From assembly GCA_944363925.1 (NCBI GenBank), contig CALVVS010000007.1, positions 1-38,551 of the forward strand: a stretch of DNA of 38,551 nt, given 5' to 3'. Shown in pieces: positions 6,187 to 38,394 of this stretch; position 1 is the first letter of the stretch, and every line of letters begins with the position of its first letter. Origin of the DNA: an uncultured Bacilli bacterium. Its GTDB lineage: Bacteria > Bacillota_I > Bacilli_A > RF39 > UBA660. Below the pieces are notes generated by a model. The model was not told the origin of the DNA, searched no databases, and saw only the letters and a list, made by a program, of their open reading frames with translations. A program made the translations under genes and the position numbers.

Positions 6187-6248
6187 AGCAAACCCTCCAT
6201 TACAAAACACCAATATTATAACATAAAAAAAGCAATATTTAAACAATA

Positions 6249-11825: not shown

Positions 11826-11855
11826 ATTATCACCTCCTAATTACTATAAAACAAG

Positions 11856-12548: not shown

Positions 12549-12560
12549 AAACACCATCCT

Positions 12561-15674: not shown

Positions 15675-16219
15675 TAACTCATCACCGTCCCAAACGTCGT
15701 AGTCATACCACCATTTAAGAAATTATCCAAAATAACTCTTAAATCATCATTAGATGTCTGTGCTGCATTAAGCCCCGCATTCGCAAAAGCTTGAATCAAG
15801 TTCCTAATTTTTTTCTGAATTTTATCCATATCCTTCTCTTTAAAAAGTAAATAAAATTCCGTATCAACAACATTATTAGTCGTAAACATATTAGCCTTAT
15901 TAATATCATCCATAATAAGCTTTCTCTTAACTGGATTAGTTTGCTGATTATAAAGAAGTTGCAATCTAGATAAATAAGAAGTAATATCAACAGGCCTATC
16001 AGCCGCAATAATCCAAAATTCATAATCAATTAAATTGTAAACATTTCTCAAATTAGTAATAATCATATTCTGTAATTCTGGCTCCAAAAGTGTAATATTT
16101 CTAGGAAATATCTTCACTCCCGTAACCTTTTCATTATTATCACAAATAATAACCCCATTTGTAATTGATCTTATTGGTACAAAATCATTTGTGTATTTGC
16201 TTCGACTCGCCGTACTCAT
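15674..16219 (-). CDS. VirB4 N-terminal domain as a separate protein
   Basis: A 181-aa soluble alpha/beta protein beginning with a segment (YTNDFVPIRSITNGVIICDN) like the start of Gram-positive VirB4/TraE ATPases. LIDYEFWIIAADRPVDITSYLSRLQ and TEFYLLFKEKDMDKIQKKIRNLIQAF fit the N-terminal CagE/TrbE domain. Normal VirB4 proteins of 650-850 residues carry this region in one chain. Here it stops at TAA, sharing one base with the ATG of the ATPase part. Its own ATG lies inside the VirB3-like gene (35-base overlap). The two products probably bind each other to rebuild a full VirB4. The lesion-free junction and overlap suggest a stable split rather than a frameshift. Confidence 0.72.
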   Translation of the reverse strand: MSTASRSKYTNDFVPIRSITNGVIICDNNEKVTGVKIFPRNITLLEPELQNMIITNLRNVYNLIDYEFWIIAADRPVDITSYLSRLQLLYNQQTNPVKRKLIMDDINKANMFTTNNVVDTEFYLLFKEKDMDKIQKKIRNLIQAFANAGLNAAQTSNDDLRVILDNFLNGGMTTTFGTVMS

Positions 16220-16511
16220 CGTTTACACACCAACCTTTCCATATAAATCTTTGTCTAGTCGTATAAAACCTATATAACTCTTGAATAATAACCCTAATAT
16301 TATGATAATTAGGTACTGGTAAAACCAGAAATCCACATATAACTGCTGGAAGTAAATCCAGTATAGCTGTGAATAATGATGTTGGCGCTATTATAAGTAA
16401 TAATAATATTGTAAACACAAGTCCAACAGCAAATAAAATCAAATCAAATGTTGTAAAAGCCCCAAAAATAAGCATAGACTTTTTTGAGTTTGCCGGAATT
16501 AAATACCTCAT
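16185..16511 (-). CDS. VirB3/PrgI-like small membrane protein
   Basis: A 108-aa protein with two adjacent hydrophobic segments (about residues 15-40 and 43-64) and a cytoplasmic tail containing LVLPVPNYHNIRVIIQELYRFYTTRQRFIWKG, in order. A two-helix protein directly upstream of virB4, with the segment VPNYHN and a basic aromatic tail, fits the VirB3/PrgI family that docks VirB4 to the membrane. I start at the ATG at 16511 (AAGGGGTG seven bases upstream) rather than the TTG one codon before. Its 3' end overlaps the VirB4 N-domain gene by 35 bases. Confidence 0.78.
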   Translation of the reverse strand: MRYLIPANSKKSMLIFGAFTTFDLILFAVGLVFTILLLLIIAPTSLFTAILDLLPAVICGFLVLPVPNYHNIRVIIQELYRFYTTRQRFIWKGWCVNDEYGESKQIHK

Positions 16512-16523
16512 CAAATCACCCCT

Positions 16524-19224: not shown

Positions 19225-20355
19225 TTATTGAGTCTCATTAGTCTCAGTAGATACATCATCACCAGTATCAGAATCAGTTCCTCCACTAGCTGAACCATCA
19301 ATATCACAGAATATATCGCCATTACTGCCAATAGATACCTCTCCTTCTCCAGCTGTATTATTAATTAAATCAACAATAAACGTCAAAAGCATCGGTAATA
19401 AAAGCAAAATAATAACTACAATTATCCTTGTATATAAATGCTTAATCGCATCTCTAAACTTCTCATCATCCGAACCAGTAATAGCCTTGATAAAACTTAC
19501 AGCTGTCATAACTACCACTAATATTATTCCAGCCACACTAATAAGCCAAAAAGCTGATGAAAGTATATTTTGTAAAGATGGACTAATAATTGTACATGGA
19601 TCACCAAGCGAATCTATATCATAACCCTCATTAGCCGCCCAATCTTTTATATTTTGTATTTCAACCGTTTCACCATTAAGACCGAGATTTTCTTTATTAT
19701 GTTCAATTTCCTCTTCTACCCTATCTTGCACGGTACTATCACATGCTGATTTAGTCGAATTTTTAATTTCATCTAAATTAGTCGACGAATTAATACAAGT
19801 AGAAGAACCATTAAATTGTCTGCCTGCCGCTGGAATATTCATCCACGCAATACGATTTGCCACACCTTCTTGTGTAGACTCACTAAAACTTATCCCACTT
19901 GGTCTCACATAACCTATCGTATATGTATCATTAGAAGTTCCATTAGTCAATGATACATATATTGATGGACAAGTAAAATTTCCATTATCTTTAAAATAAT
20001 TCTTAAACAAACTATCTGTATTATGAAAAATCTGATCATAATTACCCCAAGAATCAATAGAATAACAACTTGTACCATCGGTATTTTTATATGCATAAGC
20101 CCAAGACTCAAAAGAATCACAGTTTCCAGCATTTTTACTAGTATCTGAACATCTAAAAACAATATCCATATGTACAAAACCAGTATTTTGAGGACAATCT
20201 AAAGATAAATATCCAGGATCATCAGCCGAACCACGCAAGCCACAAAATTCATAACTACAAACTATTCCACTTGAACAACTAGCTGCTTTCGCACCAGCTA
20301 TATTAATAAACAAAACACAAATAATTAATAAAGTAAAAATAATATATTTTTTCAT
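19225..20355 (-). CDS. Secreted Cys-rich ectodomain fused to a VirB2-like two-helix module (copy A)
   Basis: A 376-aa protein: signal peptide (MKKYIIF to AGAKA), a Cys-rich ectodomain of about 230 residues (CSSGIVCSYEFC, FRCSDTSKNAG, NFTCPSIYVS), and a C-terminal module (about 275-350) of two hydrophobic helices around a charged loop. The loop contains FIKAITGSDDEKFRDAIKHLYTR; helix two is VVIILLLLPMLLTFIVDLI. This hairpin with both ends outside is the layout of VirB2/TrbC pilins, but it carries a large head. I start at the ATG at 20355 (AAGGG upstream); an ATG at 20373 would fall at or before the predicted transcription start. It is paralogous to 20433-21569. Probably a structural subunit or head of the T4SS surface assembly. 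Confidence 0.75.
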   Translation of the reverse strand: MKKYIIFTLLIICVLFINIAGAKAASCSSGIVCSYEFCGLRGSADDPGYLSLDCPQNTGFVHMDIVFRCSDTSKNAGNCDSFESWAYAYKNTDGTSCYSIDSWGNYDQIFHNTDSLFKNYFKDNGNFTCPSIYVSLTNGTSNDTYTIGYVRPSGISFSESTQEGVANRIAWMNIPAAGRQFNGSSTCINSSTNLDEIKNSTKSACDSTVQDRVEEEIEHNKENLGLNGETVEIQNIKDWAANEGYDIDSLGDPCTIISPSLQNILSSAFWLISVAGIILVVVMTAVSFIKAITGSDDEKFRDAIKHLYTRIIVVIILLLLPMLLTFIVDLINNTAGEGEVSIGSNGDIFCDIDGSASGGTDSDTGDDVSTETNETQ

Positions 20356-20377
20356 AAAATCCCTTACCCTCATATTA

Positions 20378-20432: not shown

Positions 20433-21569
20433 TTACTCAGATGAATCACCAGAAATCCCATCAGCCGAACCGTCAACATCACAGAATATCTCGCCATTAT
20501 TACCAATAGAAACCTCACCTTCACCAGCTGTTCTATTAATTAAATCAACAATAAATGTCAAAAGCATTGGTAATAAAAGTAAAATGATAACTACAATTAT
20601 TCTCGTATATAAATGCTTAATTGCATCTCTAAATTTCTCTTCATCTGAACCAGTAATAGCCTTTATAAAGCTTATTGCAGTCATAACTACAACTAATATT
20701 ATTCCAGCTACACTAATAATCCAAAAAGCTGATGAAAGCATATCCTGTAAAGAAGGACTAATAATAGTACACGGATCACCAAGTGAATCTATATCATATC
20801 CTGCATTAGCTGCCCAATCTTTTATATTTTGTATATTTACCGTCTCACCATTAGTTCCTGTAGCATCTTGAACATCTTCAATCTGTTGATGAACAGCATC
20901 TTCAACCAAATCATCTGCTACTTTACAAGCATTTTCTTTAAGACTCAAATTTTGATTACCTCGTGAAACACATCCAACTGAAACACCATAAATTACTCCT
21001 GAACCACTAGAACTATAATTTCCCGAAAAATTATTACCTGAACCACTTATCTTAAGTGGCGGACATTTATAACCATTTTTCTTAAAATAATTCATAAATG
21101 TATTAGCTGGTATAGAAGCCGTTTCACTTAAACATTTATTATACTTATCATTATCTAAAAGACCATTTTGATCAAGTGAATTCTCATAACAATAAACAGC
21201 ATCTCCAGATAATGCTTCACTTCCTACATTATTAACACTAAAATTAATTTTCATTGCCGAACCTTCTCCAGCCCCATTAGCTTTACAAGCCCCTTGTTGA
21301 GAAGTAAACTTATTACAAGCAGAAGCCGTACTATCAGTCCCATCACACCTGAAAGCCACTTGGGCTATAGCTTTCTGATAATTAAAATCACAGTTTGTAA
21401 TACTAGTATCACTACAAAATTCATATTGACATATAATTCCATATGTACAAGCTCCATTATTAGATGAACCACCATCATCAGTTGACGTATTTGGAACAGC
21501 CTTTACTCCATTAATATTTACGAATAAAATACTTACAACTAATAAAACAAATATAATATTTTTTTTCAT
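20433..21569 (-). CDS. Secreted Cys-rich ectodomain fused to a VirB2-like two-helix module (copy B)
   Basis: A 378-aa paralogue of the gene at 19225-20355. A signal peptide ends near NGVKA. The ectodomain has the same Cys landmarks (CTYGIICQYEFC, AFRCDGTDSTAS, NGYKCPPLKIS) but otherwise differs strongly, with many Ser/Gly/Asn. From NIQNIKDWAAN through the two helices the C-terminal 130 residues are almost identical to copy A, including the loop FIKAITGSDEEKFRDAIKHLYTR. Duplication followed by diversification of the exposed part is the simplest reading. ATG at 21569 with GAGGG upstream, and a -10 TATAAT at 21608-21613 suggests an internal promoter. Structural role in the T4SS inferred. Confidence 0.75.
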   Translation of the reverse strand: MKKNIIFVLLVVSILFVNINGVKAVPNTSTDDGGSSNNGACTYGIICQYEFCSDTSITNCDFNYQKAIAQVAFRCDGTDSTASACNKFTSQQGACKANGAGEGSAMKINFSVNNVGSEALSGDAVYCYENSLDQNGLLDNDKYNKCLSETASIPANTFMNYFKKNGYKCPPLKISGSGNNFSGNYSSSGSGVIYGVSVGCVSRGNQNLSLKENACKVADDLVEDAVHQQIEDVQDATGTNGETVNIQNIKDWAANAGYDIDSLGDPCTIISPSLQDMLSSAFWIISVAGIILVVVMTAISFIKAITGSDEEKFRDAIKHLYTRIIVVIILLLLPMLLTFIVDLINRTAGEGEVSIGNNGEIFCDVDGSADGISGDSSE

Positions 21570-21679: not shown

Positions 21680-22081
21680 TCACTCAGATAACTCTTCATT
21701 TTCTTCACTAGTATCAACGCCATTAATAAATTTCTTACTACAGCTCCATATATCACTGACAGTCGTCCCATCAGGATTAGTACTGTCTTCTACTCCCGAA
21801 ACCAAATTAACAGCAAGCTGAACCACAAATATAATTAGAAACACAACTAAAGCAGAAATAAGACGTGATACAAAAGCTTTTTGATATTTTTTAATATCTT
21901 CTTCTTTCTTAGCCACCACAGACTTTGTAAAATCCATCATACCCCATATAATGAGTAATATTGGCACCACAATCTTAATTCCTTTAATAATTGTTGATAC
22001 CACATTAAATAAAGCATTCGGTACTAAAATACCCTCACACAAAGTTGAATCAGCTACATCTAACATATAAAATATATCCAT
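21680..22081 (-). CDS. Small VirB2-like two-helix protein (second)
   Basis: A 133-aa protein: short N-terminus, amphipathic stretch, helix one (about residues 38-55, IVVPILLIIWGMMDFTK), charged loop (SVVAKKEEDIKKYQKAFVSRL), helix two (about 78-95, ALVVFLIIFVVQLAVNLV), and an acidic C-terminal tail with Cys. Layout and loop are those of VirB2/TrbC-type proteins and closely match the gene at 22111-22482. I start at the ATG at 22081 (AGGA seven bases upstream) rather than the TTG two codons before, which lies one base from that site. No cleavable signal peptide is obvious. Second gene of the T4SS operon. Confidence 0.72.
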   Translation of the reverse strand: MDIFYMLDVADSTLCEGILVPNALFNVVSTIIKGIKIVVPILLIIWGMMDFTKSVVAKKEEDIKKYQKAFVSRLISALVVFLIIFVVQLAVNLVSGVEDSTNPDGTTVSDIWSCSKKFINGVDTSEENEELSE

Positions 22082-22110
22082 ATCCAATTCCTACTTTCTC
22101 AAAATATTAA

Positions 22111-22482
22111 TTATTCTTTTCCACTTATCAATTCACTTGCACAATCCCAAGCAGTCTGGGCATCATTACCATCGCCACCAATACTTGCAGCTAAATTAAT
22201 AGCAAGCTGAACTATTGTAACAATCAAAAATACAACAACAGCCGCAATCAATCTTTTAATAAAAGTCTTTTGGCCTGCTTTGATTTTATCTTCATCTTGA
22301 CCAATAATTGCTTTAGCAAAATCAATCATACCCCAAATAATTAAAAGTATCGGAACTACCACTTGAATAGCTACAACAATTAAATGTACAACATTACCAA
22401 TTCCAGCTGGAATACCATTATCCATCCCAGCAACACCTTGACAATAAGGTTCAGCATTAGCCAACATATTTACTAAATTCAT
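22111..22482 (-). CDS. Small VirB2-like two-helix protein (first gene of the T4SS operon)
   Basis: A 123-aa protein: a short N-terminus with one Cys (AEPYCQG), helix one (about residues 28-50, LIVVAIQVVVPILLIIWGMIDF), charged loop AKAIIGQDEDKIKAGQKTFIKRL, helix two (about 75-95), and a short tail with Cys. The helix-loop-helix and position at the head of the operon suggest the main VirB2-type pilin or scaffold subunit. Excellent ribosome site (AAGGAGG seven bases before ATG) and a near-consensus promoter 29 bases upstream, so it should be highly expressed. Confidence 0.75.
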   Translation of the reverse strand: MNLVNMLANAEPYCQGVAGMDNGIPAGIGNVVHLIVVAIQVVVPILLIIWGMIDFAKAIIGQDEDKIKAGQKTFIKRLIAAVVVFLIVTIVQLAINLAASIGGDGNDAQTAWDCASELISGKE

Positions 22483-23955: not shown

Positions 23956-24963
23956 TTACTTAAATATTCCCATAATTCCTTTCTTACTACCTTCACCATC
24001 GGTAGAACCTTGTTTATAAAAACCTAATTTTACAAAAAACTCATCTAATGCTTTATTTTCATCGCTTTGATCATTAAGTGGTGGAATTGTTGCAAACACC
24101 GTTAAACCAGTCTCAAATTCAAAATCAGAAATATCTTGACTGTTAAGCATACATTGATTTAAAACAACTTTTTTATTCTTATTTCTCTCAAACACTTTTG
24201 GATCACGAGCAAGTAACTTGTTAAGCTGTATTTTAGATGGTTCCACCAAATATATAATTTCACTCGCAAAAGTATCAGCTGTAGGACTTGTATTACCATC
24301 AAGTAAAATAATATCCGAAGAACTGTGTTTAGATATTGTATTGCCAAGTTCACCACTTGAAATACTATACATCTTTTCCTCATCAAAATACATAAAATCG
24401 TGCTTATCAACTTCCACAGCTACAACATCATAATTATGCTCTAATTGCTTTTTAGCAATATAAATCAATGTTGTCGCTCCAGCACCAGGTGTAATATCCT
24501 TAAAACAAATAACCGAACACCTCTTCATATCTTGGGCATAACTAATAGGTGCTCCAGATACAGTTGCCCCACCATGCGTCGTATCAAGCTGATGATATTG
24601 AGCTACATCACGGTAACTGTTTGGATGATCAATAAGCCATTTAACACCATCAACATTCATCGTAAAATTATAAATTCCCATCGAAATCAAATCAGATAAA
24701 TACTCTGGATCAGAAGTCTCTGGTGAACCATCTAAAAGTAATACTAACTTGTCCACATCCAAAGATAACGAAAGTTGCTGTAAAGTCTTAATATCTTTAT
24801 AATTTCTCAAAGCTGTAACATCTAAAACCATCTTCTGAAAAAAGAAATTTTGAAAAGTATTTATAATTTCATCAACCGTAAATTCGCCCTCTAATTTCTT
24901 AATAACCTCAACATCTAAATTAGATAAAGCCTCACGATATTTATTAGCAATTATAACGTTCAT
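23956..24963 (-). CDS. TadZ/CpaE-like protein with degenerate P-loop
   Basis: A 335-aa protein: an N-terminal receiver-like region (about residues 1-110, with VLDVTALRNY and LVLLLDGSPETSDPEYL) and a MinD-like domain (about 147-325). In that domain the P-loop reads DITPGAGATTL (156-166) instead of KGGxGKT/S, so the nucleotide-binding Lys is missing. Later elements fit the fold: VVAVEVDKHDF, SDIILLDGNTSPTAD, and IYLVEPSKIQLNKLL. TadZ/CpaE localises Tad pilus machinery at the pole. It is the last gene of the Tad operon, 14 bases after a minor pilin-like gene. AGGTGAT precedes the ATG at 24963. Confidence 0.75.
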   Translation of the reverse strand: MNVIIANKYREALSNLDVEVIKKLEGEFTVDEIINTFQNFFFQKMVLDVTALRNYKDIKTLQQLSLSLDVDKLVLLLDGSPETSDPEYLSDLISMGIYNFTMNVDGVKWLIDHPNSYRDVAQYHQLDTTHGGATVSGAPISYAQDMKRCSVICFKDITPGAGATTLIYIAKKQLEHNYDVVAVEVDKHDFMYFDEEKMYSISSGELGNTISKHSSSDIILLDGNTSPTADTFASEIIYLVEPSKIQLNKLLARDPKVFERNKNKKVVLNQCMLNSQDISDFEFETGLTVFATIPPLNDQSDENKALDEFFVKLGFYKQGSTDGEGSKKGIMGIFK

Positions 24964-24977
24964 TAAATATCACCTAC

Positions 24978-25454
24978 CTAACTATTAATCTCGTTAAATA
25001 TCATCGTCTCGCCACTTACCGGAAGTTTCAAAAGACCTCCTAAAACAGGTAAATCAAAATACATATAAGTTATTACTCGGTAATAAGTACCACATTTAGC
25101 CTTATCAGAACCATTAGTACACGTATCAAATTTATATACACAGTACTGATAATCACTGTTGCCATTAACTAGCTGCCCATCACGGCCACCATTTCCACTA
25201 ACACTTTGCGCGCAAACATCAGAATTATAATTATATCCAACATTTGCCCTATAACCAATATTACTAAGCCAGTCATCTATCCTATCTTGTGTTGAAGTTG
25301 TAAAACCTTGATCCTTCTCTATTTCTTCAATAACTTTATTTTTAGCTTTAAATCCTCTAGAATAAGAAAGAGAACCAATAAATAACATAATTAAAATTAT
25401 TACAAAAATAATAATCAAATTAAATACCCCAGCATTTGCAATTGCCTCTTTCAT
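24978..25454 (-). CDS. Minor pilin-like protein with Cys-containing ectodomain
   Basis: A 158-aa protein: a very short charged leader (MKEAIANAG), one hydrophobic helix (about residues 11-33), a helical stretch with charged residues, then an exported domain with four Cys (VCAQ, YQYCVYK, DTCTN, AKCGTYY) and a C-terminal segment MYFDLPVLGGLLKLPVSGET. It is clearly related to the neighbour at 25451-25948, whose end reads YVDLPIVGAFKVPVYTKGE. The form fits TadE-type or minor pilins. ATGA overlap with the preceding gene implies translational coupling. No typical prepilin peptidase motif could be fixed with confidence. Confidence 0.68.
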   Translation of the reverse strand: MKEAIANAGVFNLIIIFVIILIMLFIGSLSYSRGFKAKNKVIEEIEKDQGFTTSTQDRIDDWLSNIGYRANVGYNYNSDVCAQSVSGNGGRDGQLVNGNSDYQYCVYKFDTCTNGSDKAKCGTYYRVITYMYFDLPVLGGLLKLPVSGETMIFNEINS

Positions 25455-25948
25455 ACCCTAGCCTCCTGTTCTTGATCATCACTAAAATTATAAATTCGCT
25501 CACCTTTTGTATAAACCGGTACTTTAAATGCGCCAACAATAGGTAAATCAACATAAATATAGCTAGTAAGTGCATAATTATAATATATTGGCTGTCTATC
25601 ACCATTAGTCCTATCAGCCTCTTGCGAACCACGATCATCATAGTAGTAATATACACAGTAAAGATGTTTAGCATCCTTAGCTCTATATAAAGTACCACCA
25701 TTCATCACCTCAGGACAATCAGCTTGTCCTGTTGGACTATAAGTATAACCAATAGACGTCAAAAATTGCTCCATTTCTTCCTCAGCTAAACTATTATAAC
25801 CTTCAAACTTGTCTATCATATAAAGTAATCTTTCATTTACCTTAAAAGCCTTATAATAACTAATAGTCGCTGAAAGAAGGCCAAACACAATTATAATAAA
25901 TAATATAATCATATTGTATAAAAATACACTACCTATTCCTTCCCGCAT
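25451..25948 (-). CDS. Minor pilin-like protein
   Basis: A 165-aa protein: leader MREGIGSVFLYN, one hydrophobic helix (about residues 10-30), charged helix (KAFKVNERLLYMIDKF), and an ectodomain with two Cys (QADCPEV, LYCVYYYY) ending in IYVDLPIVGAFKVPVYTKGERIYNF. It is paralogous to 24978-25454. Its stop shares four bases (ATGA) with the next start. It lies just downstream of the hairpin that follows the main pilin gene, which would lower its expression relative to the pilin. Confidence 0.68.
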   Translation of the reverse strand: MREGIGSVFLYNMIILFIIIVFGLLSATISYYKAFKVNERLLYMIDKFEGYNSLAEEEMEQFLTSIGYTYSPTGQADCPEVMNGGTLYRAKDAKHLYCVYYYYDDRGSQEADRTNGDRQPIYYNYALTSYIYVDLPIVGAFKVPVYTKGERIYNFSDDQEQEARV

Positions 25949-25974
25949 TTTATCTCACCGCCTCATTATTCAAT

Positions 25975-26005
25975 AAAAGCCTGCTTCCAAAAAAAGCAAG
26001 CTTTT
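25975..26005 (-). terminator. Hairpin after the pilin gene, likely partial terminator
   Basis: On the minus strand AAAAGCTTGCTT and AAGCAGGCTTTT form a 12-base stem with one G-U pair around a 7-base loop, followed by TTATTG. It begins 8 bases after the pilin stop, and the minor pilin genes continue after it. It would let the pilin be made in excess, and could also protect the short pilin mRNA. Confidence 0.7.
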
Positions 26006-26013
26006 TTATAAAA

Positions 26014-26244
26014 CTACTCAGTAGCACAACTCTTTGCACCAGCATCTTGCCAACATTTCTGATAAGTACTACCAGCATTTTTACAACCAGTAGACCCCCA
26101 ATATCCTCCAGAATCAGTACAGCACGCTCTACAAGCAGTATTACTCATCAAACTATTGACAAGTGGTGTAACAACGGCAACAATGACACCAATTAAGATA
26201 ATAGCAACAACTGTTAAGTTTGCTTCTCCTGCTGCTTCTTTCAT
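26014..26244 (-). CDS. Tad/Flp-like major pilin, Cys-rich
   Basis: A 76-aa protein, the size of Flp pilins: short leader MKEAAGEANL, hydrophobic helix (about residues 10-32), then a compact exported tail with six Cys (38, 41, 42, 54, 64, 73), enough for three disulfides. A Gly6/Glu7 pair could be the prepilin cleavage site, but the usual Glu at position five of the mature chain is not evident. The gene sits directly after tadA-tadB-tadC and is followed by a hairpin. A strong ribosome site (AGGTGAT) and an extended -10 (26272-26280) fit high expression. Cys-rich Flp-like tails are unusual. Confidence 0.75.
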   Translation of the reverse strand: MKEAAGEANLTVVAIILIGVIVAVVTPLVNSLMSNTACRACCTDSGGYWGSTGCKNAGSTYQKCWQDAGAKSCATE

Positions 26245-26271
26245 TAAATATCACCTACCCTCCTATTTTTA

Positions 26272-26280
26272 ATTATAACA
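26272..26280 (-). promoter_or_regulatory. Extended -10 promoter of the pilin gene
   Basis: On the minus strand TGTTATAAT, 27 bases before the pilin start codon and inside the 59-base gap after tadC. The -35 region is poor, so confidence is modest. Confidence 0.5.
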
Positions 26281-26303
26281 CAATTTATCTAAATTGACTA
26301 TAC

Positions 26304-27098
26304 TTAATAACTCATCATCATCATCATTGACAAAAGTAAGAAACCAAGTATACCTCCACCAGTTCCAAAAAGCATCATCATCGTTTTATTTTCCATCTTT
26401 TCCAAACGTTCTTTATACTTTTGCTCACGGGCCTTATTCTGTAAAGTAGAAATTGTTCTTGAAAACATAAGTAACTGTTCCTGCTTATTTTCCTGGCTAC
26501 CTAAACCAAGTCTGTATAAAAGCCTCATCATCCTCATCGAATCACGAACTGGATATTGATGTGCAAAATCCATATAAGGCTGTACTGATGAATCACCCGC
26601 ATCAATCTTTGCCACAAGCTCCCTAAGACCTGACTTAAATAATTCCGGCGCCGTATCAATTGAACGCGCAAGGGCAACTGGAACTGTATAATGTTGAACT
26701 AAAATTTCTAGTCCCTTTAAATAGTATGGAAGAAGTAAATTAATTTTATGCAAATTTTGCTTATAATAACTGCTAAGCTGCATATAAGGTAATTTGAAAA
26801 AACCAAAACCAATTAATAAAGAAAGTAATATATAAGCAAATGATAATTGCTGTAAAAATATAAATAAACAAAATATAATTCCGACAATACCATTACGTAC
26901 TCTAAGACCATACATCTTATTTACATCAATATCACTACCATATTTTATCCTAAGCAAAAACTCATAATCATCTTCCATTAAAACCCTAAAATAAGGTTCA
27001 GTCTCTTTAATGAATTTGTTAGAACTAAAATGATTATTAACTTCAAGTATAAATATCACAATAATTGCAATCAATATAAACATTATACCTATACTCAT
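26304..27098 (-). CDS. tadC: TadC-like pilus assembly membrane protein
   Basis: A 264-aa protein with T2SSF layout: an N-terminal helix (about residues 2-20), a helix pair (about 75-105), a cytoplasmic helical domain with LLPYYLKGLEILVQHYTVPVALARSID in sequence, DSMRMMRLLYRLGLGSQE, and a C-terminal helix ending MMMMMSY. Together with the preceding gene it forms the usual TadB-TadC pair of the inner-membrane platform. I start at the ATG at 27098, one base after the tadB stop and with GGGGG nine bases upstream. A longer form starting at 27137 would overlap tadB by 38 bases. Confidence 0.8.
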   Translation of the reverse strand: MSIGIMFILIAIIVIFILEVNNHFSSNKFIKETEPYFRVLMEDDYEFLLRIKYGSDIDVNKMYGLRVRNGIVGIIFCLFIFLQQLSFAYILLSLLIGFGFFKLPYMQLSSYYKQNLHKINLLLPYYLKGLEILVQHYTVPVALARSIDTAPELFKSGLRELVAKIDAGDSSVQPYMDFAHQYPVRDSMRMMRLLYRLGLGSQENKQEQLLMFSRTISTLQNKAREQKYKERLEKMENKTMMMLFGTGGGILGFLLLSMMMMMSY

Positions 27099-27099
27099 A

Positions 27100-28005
27100 T
27101 TACTCAGCCCCCACATCTTCATTATAATATTTTTCACCAGATAAGATAAAGAAAGTATTAAGCCATATTATTCCGTGTAATAATACCTGTACCCACCAGT
27201 TAGTAAGCATCTCATTATAAGTTTCCATACCAAGCATAAACTGTACAAGCATTACCATCAAATAAAGTATAATACCAAATTGTAAAAACTTCTTGTGGAA
27301 AGTCGCTCTATCAATTCTATCACGGTAAACACTTTCAACCAGCATATCTATATCCTGACTCATATTTTCCAAAGATTCACCGGCATCCCTAGAACCTTCC
27401 TTAGTAATTTGTAAAAACAATTGATGCATATTTCTCACAATATAGAAATCATATTTTGAATTCATATAATTTATAGATTGATCAATAGTACCATTTTCAT
27501 AAGCCATATCAATCATCATCTTTACATCAGACTTAACAGGATCTTCAAGCACATTTGAAGCATATACTCCCTCTAAAGCCTTAACAAAAGATTGTGTTGT
27601 TGCAAATTCCATTATTGTATTTGTTGTATAAACTTGTATCTGTTCAAATATAAACTCACTATAAAGTCTTTTACATCTTAAATATGTCAAATATGGAATA
27701 ACAGCCACAGCCAAAACAGAATAAATAATCGACACAACAATATTATAAAAATATAAATAAGTAATTACTGCTGCACCAACAGCAAATACCACTATTTGAA
27801 TCGCATATTGTCTTGGAGTATACTCCTGACCAAGCTCCTTAATCTTTTCTCTAATTACCCTAAATGAATAAGGAGCATACTTTTCATAAACTACACCAAG
27901 TTTCTTATTAATAAATTTATAAACATTATTACTGTTACTATTATTACGATATAAAACAATAAATATAGCAATAATCGTAACAATCAAAAGAATAACAAAA
28001 GTCAT
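27100..28005 (-). CDS. tadB: TadB-like pilus assembly membrane protein
   Basis: A 301-aa T2SSF-type protein. An N-terminal helix (about residues 3-19), a helix pair (about 70-105), a cytoplasmic domain with QVYTTNTIMEFATTQSFVKALEGVY, split here by length, then TKEGSRDAGESLENMSQDIDML, and two C-terminal helices (about 245-262 and 275-290). It serves with TadC as the membrane platform on which TadA drives pilin insertion. Strong AGGAGGG before the ATG; 11 bases after tadA. Confidence 0.82.
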   Translation of the reverse strand: MTFVILLIVTIIAIFIVLYRNNSNSNNVYKFINKKLGVVYEKYAPYSFRVIREKIKELGQEYTPRQYAIQIVVFAVGAAVITYLYFYNIVVSIIYSVLAVAVIPYLTYLRCKRLYSEFIFEQIQVYTTNTIMEFATTQSFVKALEGVYASNVLEDPVKSDVKMMIDMAYENGTIDQSINYMNSKYDFYIVRNMHQLFLQITKEGSRDAGESLENMSQDIDMLVESVYRDRIDRATFHKKFLQFGIILYLMVMLVQFMLGMETYNEMLTNWWVQVLLHGIIWLNTFFILSGEKYYNEDVGAE

Positions 28006-28016
28006 AGTACCCTCCT

Positions 28017-29351
28017 TTACTCAAATAAATTTTCCACTGATTTTTCAGCCCCTGGCAAAGGTGCATTAGAACCAATATTACTAGAGTTAACTGTAGAATT
28101 ATTAACTCCAAAATTACTATTTTGTACTGTCACATTTTCACTAAAATTATTAACACCTAAATCAGAAGAATTCGGTGTAACACTACCCAAATTAGAAACA
28201 TTTGGCGCAGCATTAGTTAAATTAACATTAGAATTACTGTCTACCTTTTCCGCATTACTCTTAAGTGATTCCCCATCAGTATAAGTATCACCAGCCATAT
28301 TCTGAAGTTCTTTTGGTAAGAACACACCCTGCACCTCCAAATAATCAATCAAATAAGGACTAGGATTATTTCTTATAATCTTACCATCCGCACCTTTTCT
28401 ATAAATAACATTGTGTTTAGCTTCGTTAGTATCATTAGTTACATAAAACTCTGTAACCTCTGCAATCTCTCTTTTAAAATTGTGCGTTGCTTTATCAGTA
28501 TAACCTCGAATATAAACACCGAGCTGAATATATCTACAAATTGAACTCATAAACTGATCCAAATCTTGATTAGTCTCAAGTAAGCTATATAAACGGTTTG
28601 GAATAGATGAAGCCTTATCCGCATGGATAGTTGATAAAATATAATGTCCAGAAGAAATAGAGTTACGAACCGCAAGTACCGCTTCCGCACTACGAACTTC
28701 CGAAAGTAAAATCCATTTCGGATTTTGACGCATGCAAGCCTCCAAAATATCCGTATAAGAAGCAATATTGTTTGTTTTCATCGAAACTATATCTCGGTGT
28801 GGAAATATCTTATCCAAATGTAATTCCAAAGTATCCTCAATAGTAATTATTTTCTCATCTTCTGCAATCTTAGATGCCAAATACTTAATAAACTCTGTCT
28901 TACCAGAACCAGTTTCACCACAGGCAATAATATTACAGTGACCAAGCACACATTGCTCTAAAAAATCAATAACATCTAATTCAACATATTTATCCGCAAC
29001 TATTTTGTCCTTTTGTAATCGAATTTTCGCTGGTGTCTTACGGACAACACATGCAATTCCGTTTTGAGCAATAGTCGGATGGATAAAAGCTAAACGTAAC
29101 TCCGCACTTTCCGCATCCAGAAATGGATGAGCCATGTTAAAAGTCTTACCCATAACATTTGAACATTGAAACGCTAGCTTTTCCATAAATGCATCATTGA
29201 TAGCCGGATTTTCAATTCTAAATATTCCTTTAGATAATGTTTTTAAATGTATTTGCCCACCATTATCATAAGAAATATCAGTTATATCATCATCAGCCAA
29301 ATATGGTTTCAAATGACCAAAATCAATTTGATCAAAAACATTATTATTCAT
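28017..29351 (-). CDS. tadA: TadA/CpaF-type pilus assembly ATPase
   Basis: A 444-aa secretion ATPase of the VirB11/TadA type. An N-terminal domain (1-120) precedes Walker A GETGSGKT (145-152), the Asp box ITIEDTLEL (169-177), a Walker B-like WILLSEVR (213-220) with the catalytic Glu, and the His box LSTIHAD (239-245). These hexamers power Tad pilus extension. The last 85 residues form an Asn/Ser-rich, low-complexity tail (VNLTNAAPNVSNLGSV and similar), which is not usual for TadA. It is the only VirB11-type ATPase in the window; none lies in the T4SS operon. One-base gap after cpaB; GGAGTC ahead of the ATG. Confidence 0.9.
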   Translation of the reverse strand: MNNNVFDQIDFGHLKPYLADDDITDISYDNGGQIHLKTLSKGIFRIENPAINDAFMEKLAFQCSNVMGKTFNMAHPFLDAESAELRLAFIHPTIAQNGIACVVRKTPAKIRLQKDKIVADKYVELDVIDFLEQCVLGHCNIIACGETGSGKTEFIKYLASKIAEDEKIITIEDTLELHLDKIFPHRDIVSMKTNNIASYTDILEACMRQNPKWILLSEVRSAEAVLAVRNSISSGHYILSTIHADKASSIPNRLYSLLETNQDLDQFMSSICRYIQLGVYIRGYTDKATHNFKREIAEVTEFYVTNDTNEAKHNVIYRKGADGKIIRNNPSPYLIDYLEVQGVFLPKELQNMAGDTYTDGESLKSNAEKVDSNSNVNLTNAAPNVSNLGSVTPNSSDLGVNNFSENVTVQNSNFGVNNSTVNSSNIGSNAPLPGAEKSVENLFE

Positions 29352-29352
29352 A

Positions 29353-30405
29353 CTATGACTCCGAATTAGTTGAATTAGTCATTGGAATATCAATTGTAAG
29401 TGAATGAGCTGTACCATCTTGTTCCTGAACAGTTGCTGTCAAAGTACCTTTAGCTGTATAAACAAGCTCTTGCTTAGTACCAGTAACTGTTTGAGATTTT
29501 CCATTATCTTTAACATAAGTACAAGTATAAGTACTACCGCAACCCTCTGGGAAAGTAATCGTTACTGTATTCCTTGTTCCACCAGTTTCACTAACAGTTG
29601 GTACTAATGGATCAGTTGCCGTATCATCCGCAATTGGAATATTAACTGAATGTGCATCAATATAATCTACAAGTTGCTGCGTAGAAACTTGTGTAGCCCC
29701 TTCAGTATCAACCGTTCCACCATGTGGTACCGGATAAAGTTCAACACCTAAAGAACCCATATAAGAAGCTTTTTTAAGCATTAAATACAAGTCAGTCTTT
29801 AAACCAAAAATCATCATAGATGGTGTTCTTTGATCACTAGTATCCTCAAACACCGCACGTCCAGAAGAATCTTTAACCGCTAAAACTTCGATATTTTCAA
29901 TAAGTTTTCCAATCATGATTTTCTCGTCACGGCCATCTCCAACCTTCATGTAAATATCTATCTTGTTACCAGGAAAAATTGAATTACCATAAGTACTTTC
30001 CATATCAACTGGAAAATTGTAAACTACTTCTCCAGATTTAACTTTTGCAAAAGCCGCATCAGGAAGCTCATCCTCAGAAATTACTGTATCCGTATAAAAC
30101 ATACTTCCTTCAGGAATAACTGAGTTAACATTTGAATACATACCAACTATTTGTGACCTAGATCTAATAACATTATCACTAAGTGAAACATTTGGCATAT
30201 CAATTAATTCAACCATATCATCTGTTATTTCAGTTCTTGGCTGAATAGTTTGCGTTGCAACTGGAATTTGAATTGGTTCCACTGCTCTGTTGATTTGTGT
30301 ACTATAACCAACATAAAGTAAAATCAAAATTATAATAACTCCAATAATCGTCACCATATTTTTGTTTTTCAAAAACCTTTTGGCCGAAGCCACTAAATTA
30401 TTCAT
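29353..30405 (-). CDS. cpaB: CpaB/RcpC-like SAF-domain pilus protein
   Basis: A 350-aa protein: one membrane helix (about residues 18-36), a SAF domain (about 46-110, with IPVATQTIQPRTEITDDMVE and NSVIPEGSMFYTDTVI), and a second region typical of CpaB (FPVDMESTYGNSIFPGNKIDIYM, then KLIENIEVLAVKD). A C-terminal beta-rich extension (about 275-345, one disulfide-like CGSTYTC) looks Ig-like. CpaB/RcpC is a periplasmic or wall-side Tad component. It stands right before tadA, as in other Tad loci. GAGAGGA before the ATG. Confidence 0.82.
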   Translation of the reverse strand: MNNLVASAKRFLKNKNMVTIIGVIIILILLYVGYSTQINRAVEPIQIPVATQTIQPRTEITDDMVELIDMPNVSLSDNVIRSRSQIVGMYSNVNSVIPEGSMFYTDTVISEDELPDAAFAKVKSGEVVYNFPVDMESTYGNSIFPGNKIDIYMKVGDGRDEKIMIGKLIENIEVLAVKDSSGRAVFEDTSDQRTPSMMIFGLKTDLYLMLKKASYMGSLGVELYPVPHGGTVDTEGATQVSTQQLVDYIDAHSVNIPIADDTATDPLVPTVSETGGTRNTVTITFPEGCGSTYTCTYVKDNGKSQTVTGTKQELVYTAKGTLTATVQEQDGTAHSLTIDIPMTNSTNSES

Positions 30406-30846: not shown

Positions 30847-33387
30847 CTAAACATCTTTATCACAAGTGTAAAAATCAGATTTACCTGCACCTGCACACTC
30901 ACCAGTAACATCTACCTGAGTATTCAAAAATTTACTAATACATTTCCGACCATTCTCTAAACAATTTAAATTAAAATCATCATATTTATTTTTATCATTA
31001 TAATTTCTAATTGATTTAATTGTAGAAGTATCTAAAGTAACTTCATATAAAACATGACTATCACTATAAACCTTTGAACCATCTTTTTTCCCTTGACTTT
31101 TCTCTCTTGTAATATAATTTTTAACCGTTAAATTATCATACTTACAGCTATATACACCATTTGAATAACTACACCAGTTAGAACCTGTATCTCTTTTATC
31201 AGCTGCTTGTCCAGGAAATGGATCCTCTAAATCAATTGTTCTATAAATAACATCTACACCACCAGGTCCAGGACAATAAGGTTCCCCATTAATCGTTGGC
31301 ATTGGTGCACACTCACCGCTAGGACAGCATCCATAAGGGCACTCACTTTCAGGACAAACAGGATCTGTCTCATTACCCTTTAAACATTTTCCAGTCTCTG
31401 GGTTATATTTTGTACCAGCTGGACAGCATGCCTTAGTCACGGGATTCCAATCAACTCCAAGCTTTTTAGCATCCTCTTCAGTTTTACAATCATCATCTTC
31501 TGAAGGCTCACCTTCACAATTTCCAGTTGATGGATTATATTTTGTACCTGCCGGACAACATGCTTTCATATTAGGATTCCAATCTAATCCTAATCTATCT
31601 GCATCCTCTTCAGTATCGCAGTCATCACTAGGTCCACTATCACATTTCCCTGTCTCAGCATTATAAGTCGTTCCAGGTGGACAACAATAACCACCCTTAC
31701 TGTTCCAATCAAGGCCTAATTCTTTAGCATCCGCTGCCGTCTTACATCCATCACCAGGACCATCAGGATCATACGAAGTCAAAATCTCACAAGAATACTC
31801 ATCAGTTGGATCACCTAAAATGGAACTTTTAGCAATGCAGCTGCCACCACTACCACCATTACCTTTAGAAGTAGCTAAATATCCACTATTATTTGCCGCA
31901 CTACTAATCTTTGCATTAGCCGGCAAATCATAAGCAAATTGAATATCTGCTGCTTTTGCCCTAGTCGCATCTATTTTCACACCATGATTTTCAAATGAAA
32001 CAGGTAAATTAGCTATGCCAACATCTTTATATCCAGATGAATCTGGCTTATGCATAGAAAGTCCATCACTTAATCTAATATAACGATAATAATTTTCTGG
32101 CAACTTGTACTTAGTCGTATTTTCCATAGTAAGTTGAACAGTCTTTCCAGAAGTCGTCATACCTGATTTATATTCTAAAAGTGGATTACGAGCATACACA
32201 CTATATAACTGCATTTCATCAGGTTCATCCATACTATATTTACTATCTTCATACGTTTCCGTATATCTAAACCACATCGTTCCCATATCCGAAGCAAAGC
32301 TTCGCTTTTTACTGCTTTCATAACTAGATAAAGCTGCCCTTTGTCTAGCAATAAATGAAGCTGTGCTTTCCTTTTCGCCTTGAACTAAATTAGTTCTGCA
32401 CTCCCTTTTCCTATACACCTTAAATGGTTTCATATTAGGAATCGAAGTAGCTCCAAAATGACTTAAATTTGCTATTTCATATTGTTCAGGATTTAAAATA
32501 AAATATCTACCAGGTTCAACATAAATTTTGTCATCCGCATTTGGAAAATAAACCGAAAATTCCTCACGACAAAGTACATTACCACCCTCATAGAAATATC
32601 CAGCAATATTACTATTATCTGATGCCGTACTAGCTATTATTCCATTCCAATTGCTTGTATCTTTTATCGTATAAGCTAAATTATCCGCATTCGTATTCTC
32701 ACATGTCGCACATGAAGCCTGATATGAATAATCATATTCTAGTTTCATAACGTCAAATTCCATTAATGGCTGATTAGCTCCACTAACCCACACTGTTCCT
32801 TCACCTGTATATACTAATTTATTAGCCTGATAATATTGTTTAGCTGCCGCATATAATTGCTGTTCATATACAGTATTAGAATACATACAATCTCCACTTT
32901 TACAAGGAAATAATGATGGATTATTCCAAGCTTCAATCCAAAAATCATCCGTCCCACTAGTCCAATGAAAATATTTATTCATTGTATTCCAAATTAAAGC
33001 TTGTCCAAAAAAATATCTTTGTTCATCAGTCAAATCTTGTCTCTCTTTATATAAATAATCACTATATAATGATACTTCATTTAATAATTCTTGCGCTTGC
33101 GTCTCATTTAAACCCTGCTGCTTAAAATAAGTTAAAGCATCCATCGAACTCATAGTAAGACCGCTTTTAAAACGTTTAGTATAATCGGCACAAAAAGCAA
33201 TTCGTCCATTAACTGTTAAAATACCTTCTTTCCATCTTTTGCCACTACTAAGTATATAAACAGAAGCCCCAGAACTTCTATTACCACTTACTCCAGTCGC
33301 CGCTTCCACTTTATTTGAACCTAAAAACATCGCAAAATTTATAGCTAAAAATACCGTTAACAATAAAAATATTTTTTTTCGCTTCAT
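30847..33387 (-). CDS. Secreted thioester-domain adhesin with Cys-rich repeats
   Basis: An 846-aa secreted protein, the largest here. After a signal peptide (1-30) comes a domain with Cys66 in RIAFCADYTKR and Gln129 in RYFFGQALIW, the spacing and context of thioester domains (TED), where Cys and Gln form an internal thioester that binds host amines covalently. A middle beta-rich region (about 205-500) is followed by three Cys-rich repeats (548-668), a further Cys cluster (CPESECPYGCCPSGEC) and a C-terminal domain (715-846). There is no LPXTG motif and no C-terminal helix, so attachment must be by another route, perhaps through the pilus. ATGA overlap with the preceding gene. An adhesin carried by or with the Tad pilus is the best inference. 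Confidence 0.78.
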   Translation of the reverse strand: MKRKKIFLLLTVFLAINFAMFLGSNKVEAATGVSGNRSSGASVYILSSGKRWKEGILTVNGRIAFCADYTKRFKSGLTMSSMDALTYFKQQGLNETQAQELLNEVSLYSDYLYKERQDLTDEQRYFFGQALIWNTMNKYFHWTSGTDDFWIEAWNNPSLFPCKSGDCMYSNTVYEQQLYAAAKQYYQANKLVYTGEGTVWVSGANQPLMEFDVMKLEYDYSYQASCATCENTNADNLAYTIKDTSNWNGIIASTASDNSNIAGYFYEGGNVLCREEFSVYFPNADDKIYVEPGRYFILNPEQYEIANLSHFGATSIPNMKPFKVYRKRECRTNLVQGEKESTASFIARQRAALSSYESSKKRSFASDMGTMWFRYTETYEDSKYSMDEPDEMQLYSVYARNPLLEYKSGMTTSGKTVQLTMENTTKYKLPENYYRYIRLSDGLSMHKPDSSGYKDVGIANLPVSFENHGVKIDATRAKAADIQFAYDLPANAKISSAANNSGYLATSKGNGGSGGSCIAKSSILGDPTDEYSCEILTSYDPDGPGDGCKTAADAKELGLDWNSKGGYCCPPGTTYNAETGKCDSGPSDDCDTEEDADRLGLDWNPNMKACCPAGTKYNPSTGNCEGEPSEDDDCKTEEDAKKLGVDWNPVTKACCPAGTKYNPETGKCLKGNETDPVCPESECPYGCCPSGECAPMPTINGEPYCPGPGGVDVIYRTIDLEDPFPGQAADKRDTGSNWCSYSNGVYSCKYDNLTVKNYITREKSQGKKDGSKVYSDSHVLYEVTLDTSTIKSIRNYNDKNKYDDFNLNCLENGRKCISKFLNTQVDVTGECAGAGKSDFYTCDKDV
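31384..31746 (-). repeat. Three tandem Cys-rich repeats inside the thioester protein
   Basis: Three units of about 35 residues spaced 42-44 apart (548-582, 590-624, 634-668). Each reads roughly C-x5-DA..LG.DWN....CCP.GT.YN..TG.C, with four Cys. Unit two and unit three are the most alike (KACCPAGTKYNP in both). They probably form a rigid disulfide stalk. Confidence 0.85.
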
Positions 33388-35804: not shown

Positions 35805-36821
35805 TCACAATTTACATAATGGATTATCCGAATCATATCCTAAAATAGAAGCGACATTATTAATAATATCTATAATAAACGTAAGAATAACCGGCAATAA
35901 CAATAAAATAATCACCGCTATTATTCTAGATTTCAAATTGTTAAAGAAATTTTTCAAACCAGCATCATCATGACCCACTATCACCTTAATCAAGTCGATC
36001 ATGCTTAAAATTACAACTAAAACAATTCCTCCAACACTAATATATACAAACAAATTATTCAAAAATTCGCTTATTTCGCCAGAAATTAGATCACATGGAT
36101 CAGCTGCATTATATATCAAAGATCCATTAACTGACTCAGCCCATTTTTTTACATTTTCACTATAATTAATACCATCAAATCTAAAAATTGCATATGGCCG
36201 GCCATCCCAACCACCAGCTGCATTAAATAAACTTGGATAAAAACTACAATTATATCCCCCACACCAAGATGCCTGTATTGAATCAGCACCACTATTTGGC
36301 CAATATTTTCTAACAGCTTCATTTCCTAAATAAAGCCATATATGCTGACCTCTTGTTGTCATAGTTGGATCAACAAGCATAACATCTCCAGGCTCTAAAA
36401 AGGTTGTAGCTTGACCTAAATAATATGTCCCAACCCGCTTCCATTTTGTCTTTCCTTCACCTTCAGTAAGATAATCCCACTGATCAGGACATAAATACGT
36501 CGGAAAATCAGGATCTACACTTCCTCTAACAATGGTTGAAACAGCCACCGCACAATCGCCATATTCGCCACCATCTACTGTTCCTCCGCCTACAGGACTT
36601 ACCTTTTCACGAAGATCTATATAATTCTTTGTTTGACTATTATATTCTCTTGTCCACGCTCTCTCTACTATATATGCACTATTAATTCCACATGCCACTC
36701 TAGCCCCAGTATCCGCAATTTTATTTCCTTCAGCCGTATCAGCACGTACATCATTAATTGATAAAAAGAAAATAAAAAACAACATTATAAATATAATAAA
36801 TTTTTTCTCATAATTTCTCAT
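35805..36821 (-). CDS. NlpC/P60-like hydrolase fused to a VirB2-like two-helix module
   Basis: A 338-aa protein. After a signal peptide (1-28) comes an NlpC/P60-like domain (about 30-217) with Cys90 in YGDCAVAVSTIV, LEPGDVMLV and His160 in RGQHIWLYLGNEAV, the expected catalytic pair and surrounding pattern. A short linker leads to a C-terminal module (about 243-325) of two helices around the loop VIVGHDDAGLKNFFNNLKSR. This is the same VirB2-like design as in the T4SS proteins at 19225-22482, including DPC before helix one and LLLLPVILTFIIDII. The wall hydrolase is thus held on the outer face of the membrane by a pilin-like hairpin. GGGGGT before the ATG. The paralogue at 37404-38394 is split. 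Confidence 0.8.
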   Translation of the reverse strand: MRNYEKKFIIFIMLFFIFFLSINDVRADTAEGNKIADTGARVACGINSAYIVERAWTREYNSQTKNYIDLREKVSPVGGGTVDGGEYGDCAVAVSTIVRGSVDPDFPTYLCPDQWDYLTEGEGKTKWKRVGTYYLGQATTFLEPGDVMLVDPTMTTRGQHIWLYLGNEAVRKYWPNSGADSIQASWCGGYNCSFYPSLFNAAGGWDGRPYAIFRFDGINYSENVKKWAESVNGSLIYNAADPCDLISGEISEFLNNLFVYISVGGIVLVVILSMIDLIKVIVGHDDAGLKNFFNNLKSRIIAVIILLLLPVILTFIIDIINNVASILGYDSDNPLCKL

Positions 36822-36886: not shown

Positions 36887-37399
36887 TTATTTTTCCTCTT
36901 TTTTACTATTATTTTTCAAATAATCCATAATACTCATATATTTTTCCTTTAATTTATCGTAGCTAAAAGTCGCATTAGCTCCACTAGTCGATGGTAAATA
37001 AATTGCTTTAATTAAAACATCTTTATAACAATACCTATCATATAACTCCAAAGCCTTCCTCCCAGTTACGAAAATAGTTTTCACATCAGTATCTTTAATT
37101 AAATTTTTAATGTCATTAACCTTAGGATTTTTTATAGAACTATCACTAGAACCATTTATCTCACATGAAGCAAGCACATCCCATAAAGCTATTTTATGCC
37201 TTTTTAAAAAATCCTTCTTATCTAAAATAGTCTTAGGTAAATCTTCACCAAATAAATCACTTAAAACTCGCCAAAACCTATTTTGTGGATGCATATAATA
37301 AAATCCAAATTCTCTAGATTTTATAGATGGAATAGATCCTAAAATAAGAATCTTACTATCCTTATTAATAAAAGGTCCAAATTCATGATTAACTAACAT
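36887..37399 (-). CDS. Uracil/hypoxanthine-DNA glycosylase family protein
   Basis: A 170-aa protein of the UDG superfamily, closest in motifs to the DNA-deoxyinosine (hypoxanthine) glycosylase family. Motif one is GSIPSIKSREFGFYY (21-35), followed by HPQNRFW (37-43), LWDVLASCE, and motif two LPSTSGANA (135-143). It would excise deaminated bases in the cytoplasm. It begins 4 bases after the stop of the split VirB2-like gene and sits between two copies of the NlpC-VirB2 unit, an odd place for a repair gene. A ribosome site is weak (GTAAGTTGTG), so it may depend on coupling. Confidence 0.82.
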   Translation of the reverse strand: MLVNHEFGPFINKDSKILILGSIPSIKSREFGFYYMHPQNRFWRVLSDLFGEDLPKTILDKKDFLKRHKIALWDVLASCEINGSSDSSIKNPKVNDIKNLIKDTDVKTIFVTGRKALELYDRYCYKDVLIKAIYLPSTSGANATFSYDKLKEKYMSIMDYLKNNSKKEEK

Positions 37400-37403
37400 A
37401 TTG

Positions 37404-37754
37404 TCACAACTTACATAACGGATTATCTGAATTATATCCTAAAATAGGGGCGACTTTATTAATAATTTCTATAATAAATGTAAGAATAACCGGCAATAAC
37501 AATAAAATAATAACAACTATTATTCTCGACTTTAAATTGTTAAAGAAATTTTTTAAACCATCATCATCGTGTCCTACTATAACCTTAACCAAATCAATCA
37601 TACTCAAAATTACAACTAAAACAATTCCTCCAACACTAATATATCCAAATAAACTATTCAAAAAACCACTTATTTCACCAGAAATAAGATCGCATGGATC
37701 AACTGTATTATATATAAAAGATTCGTTCGCTTGATCAGCCCATTTAAGTACCAT
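37404..37754 (-). CDS. VirB2-like two-helix module split from its NlpC partner
   Basis: A 116-aa reading frame matching the C-terminal third of the protein at 35805-36821: DPCDLISGEISGFLNSLF, loop VIVGHDDDGLKNFFNNLKSR and LLLLPVILTFIIEII, ending NPLCKL. Its ATG overlaps the end of the NlpC frame by 11 bases (ATGGTACTTAA), so it could be translated by coupling; the ribosome site is poor. Compared with the intact copy about seven residues (INYSENV) are missing at the junction and the frame is shifted. It is either a broken gene or a functional split. As a free protein it would have the size and form of the small VirB2-like proteins of the T4SS. Confidence 0.65.
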   Translation of the reverse strand: MVLKWADQANESFIYNTVDPCDLISGEISGFLNSLFGYISVGGIVLVVILSMIDLVKVIVGHDDDGLKNFFNNLKSRIIVVIILLLLPVILTFIIEIINKVAPILGYNSDNPLCKL

Positions 37755-38394
37755 TAAATCTAAAAATTACATAAGTCCTAGAATCACCATAAGGATTTTC
37801 TTCTGCGTTAAATAAAGTTGGATAATAACTACCATTAGGATATGAATTATATCCAGCTTCAACAGAATCAGCATTACTATCAGGATAATATTTTCTAACA
37901 GCTTCATTACCAAAATACATCCAAATATGCCCATAAACATTGCTTGACGTATTTACCGCAGAATCAACAATCAAAACATCTCCAGGCTCTAATGAAGCCG
38001 TACTAGTACCTTTATAATATATACCGATACGTTTCCAATCACTATTACCATCCAAATATCTCAACTGATTTGGTACTAAAAACGCCTCAAAGTTTGGATC
38101 AACACCAGAACTTCTAACAATTGTCGCTACTCCCACATCACAACTAGCATAAGAACCATCATCATTTGCGGCATTAACTATATATTTATCTCTAGCATCA
38201 ACATATTTTTTAGTAGTATCATTATAAATTTTAGTTGATGACCAATAAGCATAAATTCTCGATGTCCCACAAGCTAATTTAGCCCCCATATCCGCCATCC
38301 TATTTCCTTGCGTACTAGCCCCCAAAACATTATATGGAAAACATAAAAACACAAAAGTTAAAAACACAATAATTTTTAAATGTCTTTTTACCAT
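37744..38394 (-). CDS. NlpC/P60-like secreted hydrolase, split from its VirB2-like partner
   Basis: A 216-aa protein: signal peptide (1-25), then an NlpC/P60-like domain with catalytic Cys in YASCDVGVATIV, LEPGDVLIVD and His in VYGHIWMYFGNEAV. It ends at RFNGT where the intact paralogue continues through RFDGIN to the membrane module. All catalytic motifs are kept, so a soluble secreted enzyme could be made. The ectodomain differs from the paralogue mainly in loops. ATG at 38394 with AAAGGATGAGGG upstream, and a promoter at 38430-38451. First gene of the Tad-linked operon. Confidence 0.7.
   Translation of the reverse strand: MVKRHLKIIVFLTFVFLCFPYNVLGASTQGNRMADMGAKLACGTSRIYAYWSSTKIYNDTTKKYVDARDKYIVNAANDDGSYASCDVGVATIVRSSGVDPNFEAFLVPNQLRYLDGNSDWKRIGIYYKGTSTASLEPGDVLIVDSAVNTSSNVYGHIWMYFGNEAVRKYYPDSNADSVEAGYNSYPNGSYYPTLFNAEENPYGDSRTYVIFRFNGT

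Follow-up and report, generated by a model that had tools for sequence, protein, structure and literature searches.

The window, the whole stretch of 38,551 nucleotides analyzed here, encodes a protein in which a secreted domain of the NlpC/P60 fold is joined to a membrane hairpin related to VirB2-type pilins. The protein is one of a family-wide "cargo on a pilin" set that seems to be undescribed. We favor, with slightly less than even confidence, the reading that the hairpin docks a wall hydrolase at the chromosomal T4SS of this family, Bacilli with small genomes, where the protein would be a minor, pilin-like subunit with a role similar to that of VirB1. The gene and its parts are:

35805 to 36821 (-): NlpC/P60-hairpin fusion protein, 338 aa
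36741 to 36821 (-): putative signal peptide, residues 1-27, cut between VRA and D, read by eye from the sequence
36162 to 36740 (-): NlpC/P60-fold domain, residues 28-220, from AlphaFold model, structural alignment and homologues
36552 to 36554 and 36342 to 36344 (-): codons of Cys90 and His160, the catalytic-position residues of this domain
35853 to 36101 (-): VirB2/T4SS_pilin-type hairpin, approximately residues 241-323, with Cys243 ahead of helix 1 and Cys336 past helix 2

The open reading frame was present exactly as an earlier note on this DNA had given it. The signal peptide looks cleavable, and a small residue ahead of the cut is kept among the homologues of the protein. After it come the enzyme domain, which spans some 190 residues, then a short linker and finally the hairpin. 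The earlier note had claimed a secreted NlpC/P60 domain with Cys90 and His160 in place, and this was borne out by a structural search that had been set in advance as a refutation test and by the invariance of both residues in 7/7 homologues. AlphaFold gave a confident model for the enzyme domain alone (pLDDT 84.9, pTM 0.88), in which Cys90 opens helix 63-72 and His160 immediately precedes strand 134-137. By alignment, the third active-site position is probably Gln183; it is Gln or Glu across the family and apparently His in Gordonia. The best structural alignment of the domain model was to 8er5 (Z 10.5, rmsd 2.8 Å, 113 residues aligned). When the Foldseek candidates were re-aligned, ranks 1-47 were all NlpC/P60, CHAP or related cysteine amidases, and a transglutaminase first appeared at rank 48. 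Tse1 and Tae3 were among the structural neighbors.

Foldseek by itself was weak on the domain model (best E 9.8e-3) and gave no significant match with the full-length model, probably because the hairpin part is poorly modeled. Pfam PF00877 and PF05257 did not match the enzyme domain of the window, even at E 10. Judged from its model, the domain is thus NlpC/P60 by fold, though Pfam does not recognize its membership. Sequence-only searches of the PDB with the whole protein and with the N-domain profile found nothing, phage records held no match, and a scan of viral contigs with the N-domain found no relative.

The N-domain matched the C-terminal part, which is the second domain, of actinobacterial plasmid lysins when the whole plasmid collection was searched (6e-5). 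Lysins of Gordonia pGKT2 (KTR9_RS00280), Rhodococcus pGS01 and Glutamicibacter pGnB68 share the homologous cysteine domain with its Cys and His, and pairwise identity to KTR9_RS00280 was 33% over 132 columns. In these lysins the cysteine domain comes after a Phage_lysozyme2 or SLT domain, and no pilin-type hairpin was noted. Their genes have a relaxase gene (Gordonia) or a VirB4-like ATPase gene (Glutamicibacter) as neighbor. Bearing on a putative VirB1-type role of the window enzyme at a T4SS are its domain homology to the plasmid lysins and the locus position of two of the copies.

The hairpin was found to be related to VirB2-type pilins, as the earlier note had proposed, and not to be a generic anchor; it thereby withstood the second refutation test of that note. 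The match of the window hairpin to Pfam T4SS_pilin (PF18895; 2.7e-5, 24.6 bits) was below the cut-off of 26.6 bits, and two sister hairpins were above it (L051, 37.1 bits; L047, 28.1 bits). Compared with the bare pilins by HHalign, the full set of fusion hairpins had a profile probability of 98.1% (6e-14); with the enzyme clade alone the value was 93.8% (1.7e-7), and seven control families of membrane proteins from the same loci reached 5% at most. Chance likeness of hydrophobic helices was rejected on these controls and because the hairpin is nearly absent elsewhere in the class. The VirB6-like protein of the locus (17081-19213) showed a faint profile similarity to the hairpin (4-5%), at about residues 44-117 of the profile.

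In the full-length model the hairpin region consists of helices 242-281 and 286-323 at low confidence. The predicted topology, read by eye from the signal peptide and a basic loop, has both ends outside and the basic loop inside. Cys residues flank the hairpin on both sides in 53/55 bare and 42/46 fused sequences, the misses being truncated sequences; on the predicted topology both would lie outside and could pair. The loop Arg of the pilin pattern is kept in the hairpins. Fusion hairpins have a conserved Pro in helix 2, which the bare pilins are without. A tree built from 100 hairpins placed the bare pilins opposite the fusions (support 100/100), and within the fusions all hairpins of the genus that carry wall enzymes, of three cargo types, formed one clade (99/96).

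Five genomes of a single genus were found to carry the NlpC-hairpin fusion; six copies are intact in one frame and a seventh is split. Enzyme-domain identity of the six intact copies to the first was 45-68%, with some at only 45-53%. The N-domain was present in 5/44 genomes of the genus. Outside the genus, the hairpin was found in 36/38 family genomes sampled, with only three borderline matches in the rest of the class; in a larger family sample it was present in 105/117. Regions fetched from the genus held 46 fusions, 37 of which carry one group of related Cys-rich secreted domains.

Other enzymes were also found as cargo. L044 (genome G029) joins the hairpin to a different NlpC/P60 domain (PF00877, 2.1e-4, slightly below cut-off), and L178, from outside the genus, has an NlpC/P60 domain ahead of the hairpin that passes PF00877 (23.5 vs 23 bits). 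L039 (genome G030) carries a YkuD L,D-transpeptidase (PF03734, 1.9e-11) with one in-frame TAA between enzyme and hairpin. Outside the genus, cargo also follows the hairpin: CHAP in L179, C39 peptidase in L126 and in L197, and a domain resembling an esterase in L182. Among 122 fusions sampled, the longer part was before the hairpin in 115 and after it in 7, and most cargo was without an assigned family. A recent chance fusion was rejected, since different enzymes are joined on either side of the hairpin across several genera. In genome G365, two proteins (L182:892-1971 and L197:1868-2932) have near-identical hairpins at the extreme N-terminus, followed by the esterase-like domain in one and the C39-like peptidase in the other. 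A linker stop or frame change occurs in two separate copies (window 37404-38394; L039:6688-7674), leaving enzyme and hairpin as separate open reading frames.

Within a genome the hairpin is constant and the cargo varies. Hairpin identity exceeded cargo identity in 33 of 34 within-genome fusion pairs, with medians of 74% and 24%. In about a dozen within-genome pairs the hairpins were 92-99% alike and the cargo 16-48% alike. DNA identity in these pairs was mostly 0.9-1.0 inside the hairpin and about 0.5 right past the stop codon, while upstream of the hairpin it dropped within roughly 30-120 bases. Fourfold sites agreed at 34/37, 35/40 and 32/36 in three pairs (L043, L051 and L077/L079), which were used because such counts are reliable only where the hairpins start in register. 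With this high agreement protein constraint alone is insufficient, and gene conversion or recent cassette duplication accounts for the likeness of the hairpins. The enzyme paralogues of one genome (L077/L079) have hairpins that are 98% alike. The window enzyme hairpin is 84% identical to that of its enzyme-bearing paralogue and 44-46% identical to those of the operon fusions.

Pilin-like genes and T4SS genes lie on the same contig as the fusion. The features of the window locus are:

37744 to 38394 (-): second copy, enzyme half, with a stop codon just ahead of the hairpin
37404 to 37754 (-): second copy, hairpin half, in a different frame and overlapping the enzyme half
22111 to 22482 (-): bare pilin-like subunit 1, from tree and profile comparison
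21680 to 22087 (-): bare pilin-like subunit 2, from tree and profile comparison
20433 to 21569 (-): hairpin fusion B, Cys-rich secreted cargo
19225 to 20373 (-): hairpin fusion A, Cys-rich secreted cargo; 93% (hairpin) and 28% (cargo) identical to B
17081 to 19213 (-): VirB6/TrbL-like membrane protein; weak profile matches, size and position fit
16185 to 16514 (-): VirB3-like protein, from position and two helices; in relatives conserved beside VirB4
15674 to 16219 (-): N-terminal part of VirB4 as its own gene (NF045975, 2.8e-16)
13890 to 15674 (-): ATPase part of VirB4 (NF045975, 3.9e-102)
10524 to 11825 (-): separate C39 + NlpC/P60 lysin, likely the ordinary VirB1-type enzyme of the locus
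3877 to 6264 (-): VirD4 coupling ATPase

The bare pilin-like genes and fusions A and B adjoin the genes for VirB6, VirB3 and the split VirB4. In the window and in genome G014 the genes form a series on one strand, from the enzyme-hairpin gene through a UDG-like gene, surface proteins, Tad genes, pilins, fusions and VirB6-VirB3-VirB4 to VirD4. The window VirB4 is 65-81% identical to that of almost all family genomes, where it has the same split form. The open frame of about 595-620 aa for the ATPase in nearly all of them indicates that the split is native and family-wide and not an error. VirB4 proteins of what look like mobile elements are longer. A PF03432 relaxase was not matched in the genome of the window and was over the cut-off in only 19/117 family genomes. 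Genomes lacking the hairpin were mostly without the family VirB4 (9/12). This co-absence, which counts all hairpins and not the enzyme class, gave Fisher p-values of 3e-6 and, among genomes at least 90% complete, 1e-5; both are optimistic given related genomes and incomplete assemblies. The enzyme-hairpin gene heads the Tad/T4SS locus only in the window and G014. In G029 some 6.5 kb and a change of strand separate it from the locus, and in G004, G030 and G060 it is away from the locus, e.g., near dnaG/rpoD or beside mreB-like genes.

In the reading we favor, the protein would be a secreted NlpC/P60-fold enzyme, either a cysteine peptidase or an amidase, which the VirB2-type hairpin would hold in the membrane with both ends outside. 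The hairpin would act as a recognition module by which the enzyme could take its place among the pilin-like subunits of the chromosomal T4SS. Most likely the fusion would be present in low numbers, as a minor subunit in the membrane or at the base. There the enzyme may open or trim wall peptides, its presumed substrate, in the manner of the VirB1 proteins of conjugation machines. The protein is one of the cargo-on-hairpin set, in which cargo varies and the hairpin is common within a genome. The locus has its own C39 + NlpC lysin, so the hairpin enzyme is probably an addition and not the sole VirB1. This lysin, the presence of the N-domain in only a few genomes of the genus, the location of most enzyme-hairpin genes outside the T4SS operon, and the lack of homogenization between enzyme hairpins and operon fusions of the same genome (46% vs 93% within the operon) all count against this reading. 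On the condition that the hairpin polymerizes like VirB2, the earlier note had placed the enzyme exactly where the machine crosses the peptidoglycan. This is a position that we infer, because the enzyme hairpins form a clade of their own apart from the bare pilins and only two copies head the locus.

The scattering of the enzyme-hairpin genes makes a serious rival of the proposal that a pilin-derived hairpin was reused as a plain two-helix anchor for wall enzymes, with the link to the T4SS gone. It would also fit that the enzyme hairpins form a separate clade and show no homogenization with the operon fusions. We nevertheless hold it to be rather unlikely. The pilin pattern is retained, including the flanking Cys pair and the loop Arg, and among the enzyme paralogues of one genome the hairpins are homogenized. 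In addition, the gene stands at the head of the Tad/T4SS locus in two cases, and hairpin and VirB4 are absent together, counted over hairpins of every class. Pilus display, an idea that goes back to the earlier note, would have the hairpin join a VirB2-like polymer, with the enzyme borne outward on or along a filament at the surface. Homology to pilin-like subunits, a predicted topology that is that of VirB2 pilins, and varying cargo on a constant hairpin would suit such display. However, no filament is known for these bacteria, a domain of some 190 residues per subunit would crowd it, and the fusion hairpins are set apart from the bare pilins by the tree and by the helix-2 Pro. We hold display to be unlikely, and less probable than a plain anchor.

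We consider it very unlikely that the T4SS presents the enzyme to neighboring cells, or delivers it into them, to cut their walls. The likeness to Tse1 and Tae3 points that way, and a chromosomal T4SS with family-wide VirB4, in a genome without a PF03432 match, may not transfer DNA. However, a signal peptide and membrane hairpin fit surface retention and not translocation, and no recurrent immunity-like gene was found beside the copies. It is most improbable that the gene is misjoined or decaying and the fusion functionless. A frame change does divide the second copy in the window, and the linker of L039 contains an in-frame TAA, but the six intact in-frame copies keep Cys and His invariant at 45-68% enzyme-domain identity, and different enzymes are fused in other genera.

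Some parts of this arrangement are already known, namely Gram-positive VirB1 lysins, NlpC/P60 enzymes and the VirB2-like pilin arrays of Patescibacteria (PMC12857230, PMC12102498). PrgK of pCF10, TraG of pIP501 and Orf14 of Tn916 each serve a T4SS as a wall hydrolase whose cysteine domain is CHAP or a relative of it. In these lysins the cysteine domain is paired with a muramidase or transglycosylase and there is no VirB2-type hairpin (PMC12857230), whereas the window domain stands alone on a pilin-like anchor. Patescibacteria have monoderm-type T4SS loci with multicopy PF18895/VirB2-like pilins, mostly without a relaxase, as here. No enzyme-pilin fusions were found mentioned for them (PMC12102498; PMC12857230), and the lineage here is Bacilli. 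The best named NCBIfam matches of the VirB4 and the hairpins were Mycoplasma ICE proteins (Mbov_0395 pilin-like, Mbov_0396/MMCAP2_0566 TM, Mbov_0397 VirB4); they fell below the cut-offs of the models, which name no wall-enzyme domain. In agreement with the earlier note, which knew of no described NlpC/P60-VirB2 fusion, neither enzyme-pilin hairpin fusions nor the pattern of constant hairpin and variable cargo was found in the open-access literature searched.

VirB2 and VirB5 have been reported absent from Gram-positive T4SS, Patescibacteria excepted (PMC12857230), and VirB2 to be wanting in Gram-positive classes (PMC12102498). This contrasts with the present family, another monoderm one, where VirB2-type hairpins are nearly universal, multicopy and cargo-fused. 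A broader proposal, to which we give a little less credence than to docking, is that a Bacilli family has turned a T4SS pilin into a general fusion cassette. A species-specific hairpin, homogenized by recombination in each genome, would plug exchangeable cargo into one T4SS-based surface machine, the cargo being outside-facing Cys-rich and possibly adhesive domains, wall hydrolases, an L,D-transpeptidase and an esterase. Should the hairpin co-assemble with the machine, the arrangement would be a natural means of bringing wall enzymes and surface proteins to a T4SS, and would provide a module by which proteins of choice could be directed to it. Through the enzyme fusions it can be tested whether anything more than a pilin hairpin is needed for a wall hydrolase to be recruited to the point at which a T4SS traverses the peptidoglycan.

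Further observations concern other genes of the window. A Tad-type locus (23956-30405; RcpC, TadA, TadB/TadC-like, TadZ-like) adjoins the T4SS locus, both being on one strand, and G014 and G029 share this order. The large secreted protein beside the Tad genes (30847-33387) has a weak match to the thioester domain PF08341 (E 0.0087) and is possibly an adhesin. The C39 + NlpC/P60 lysin gene is accompanied by a broken tandem duplicate (12561-13418 with 13476-13724) within 10524-13724. A uracil-DNA-glycosylase-family gene (36887-37399) lies between both NlpC-hairpin copies of the window and adjoins the G014 copy too; the G029 gene has the same location but no NlpC-hairpin gene beside it.
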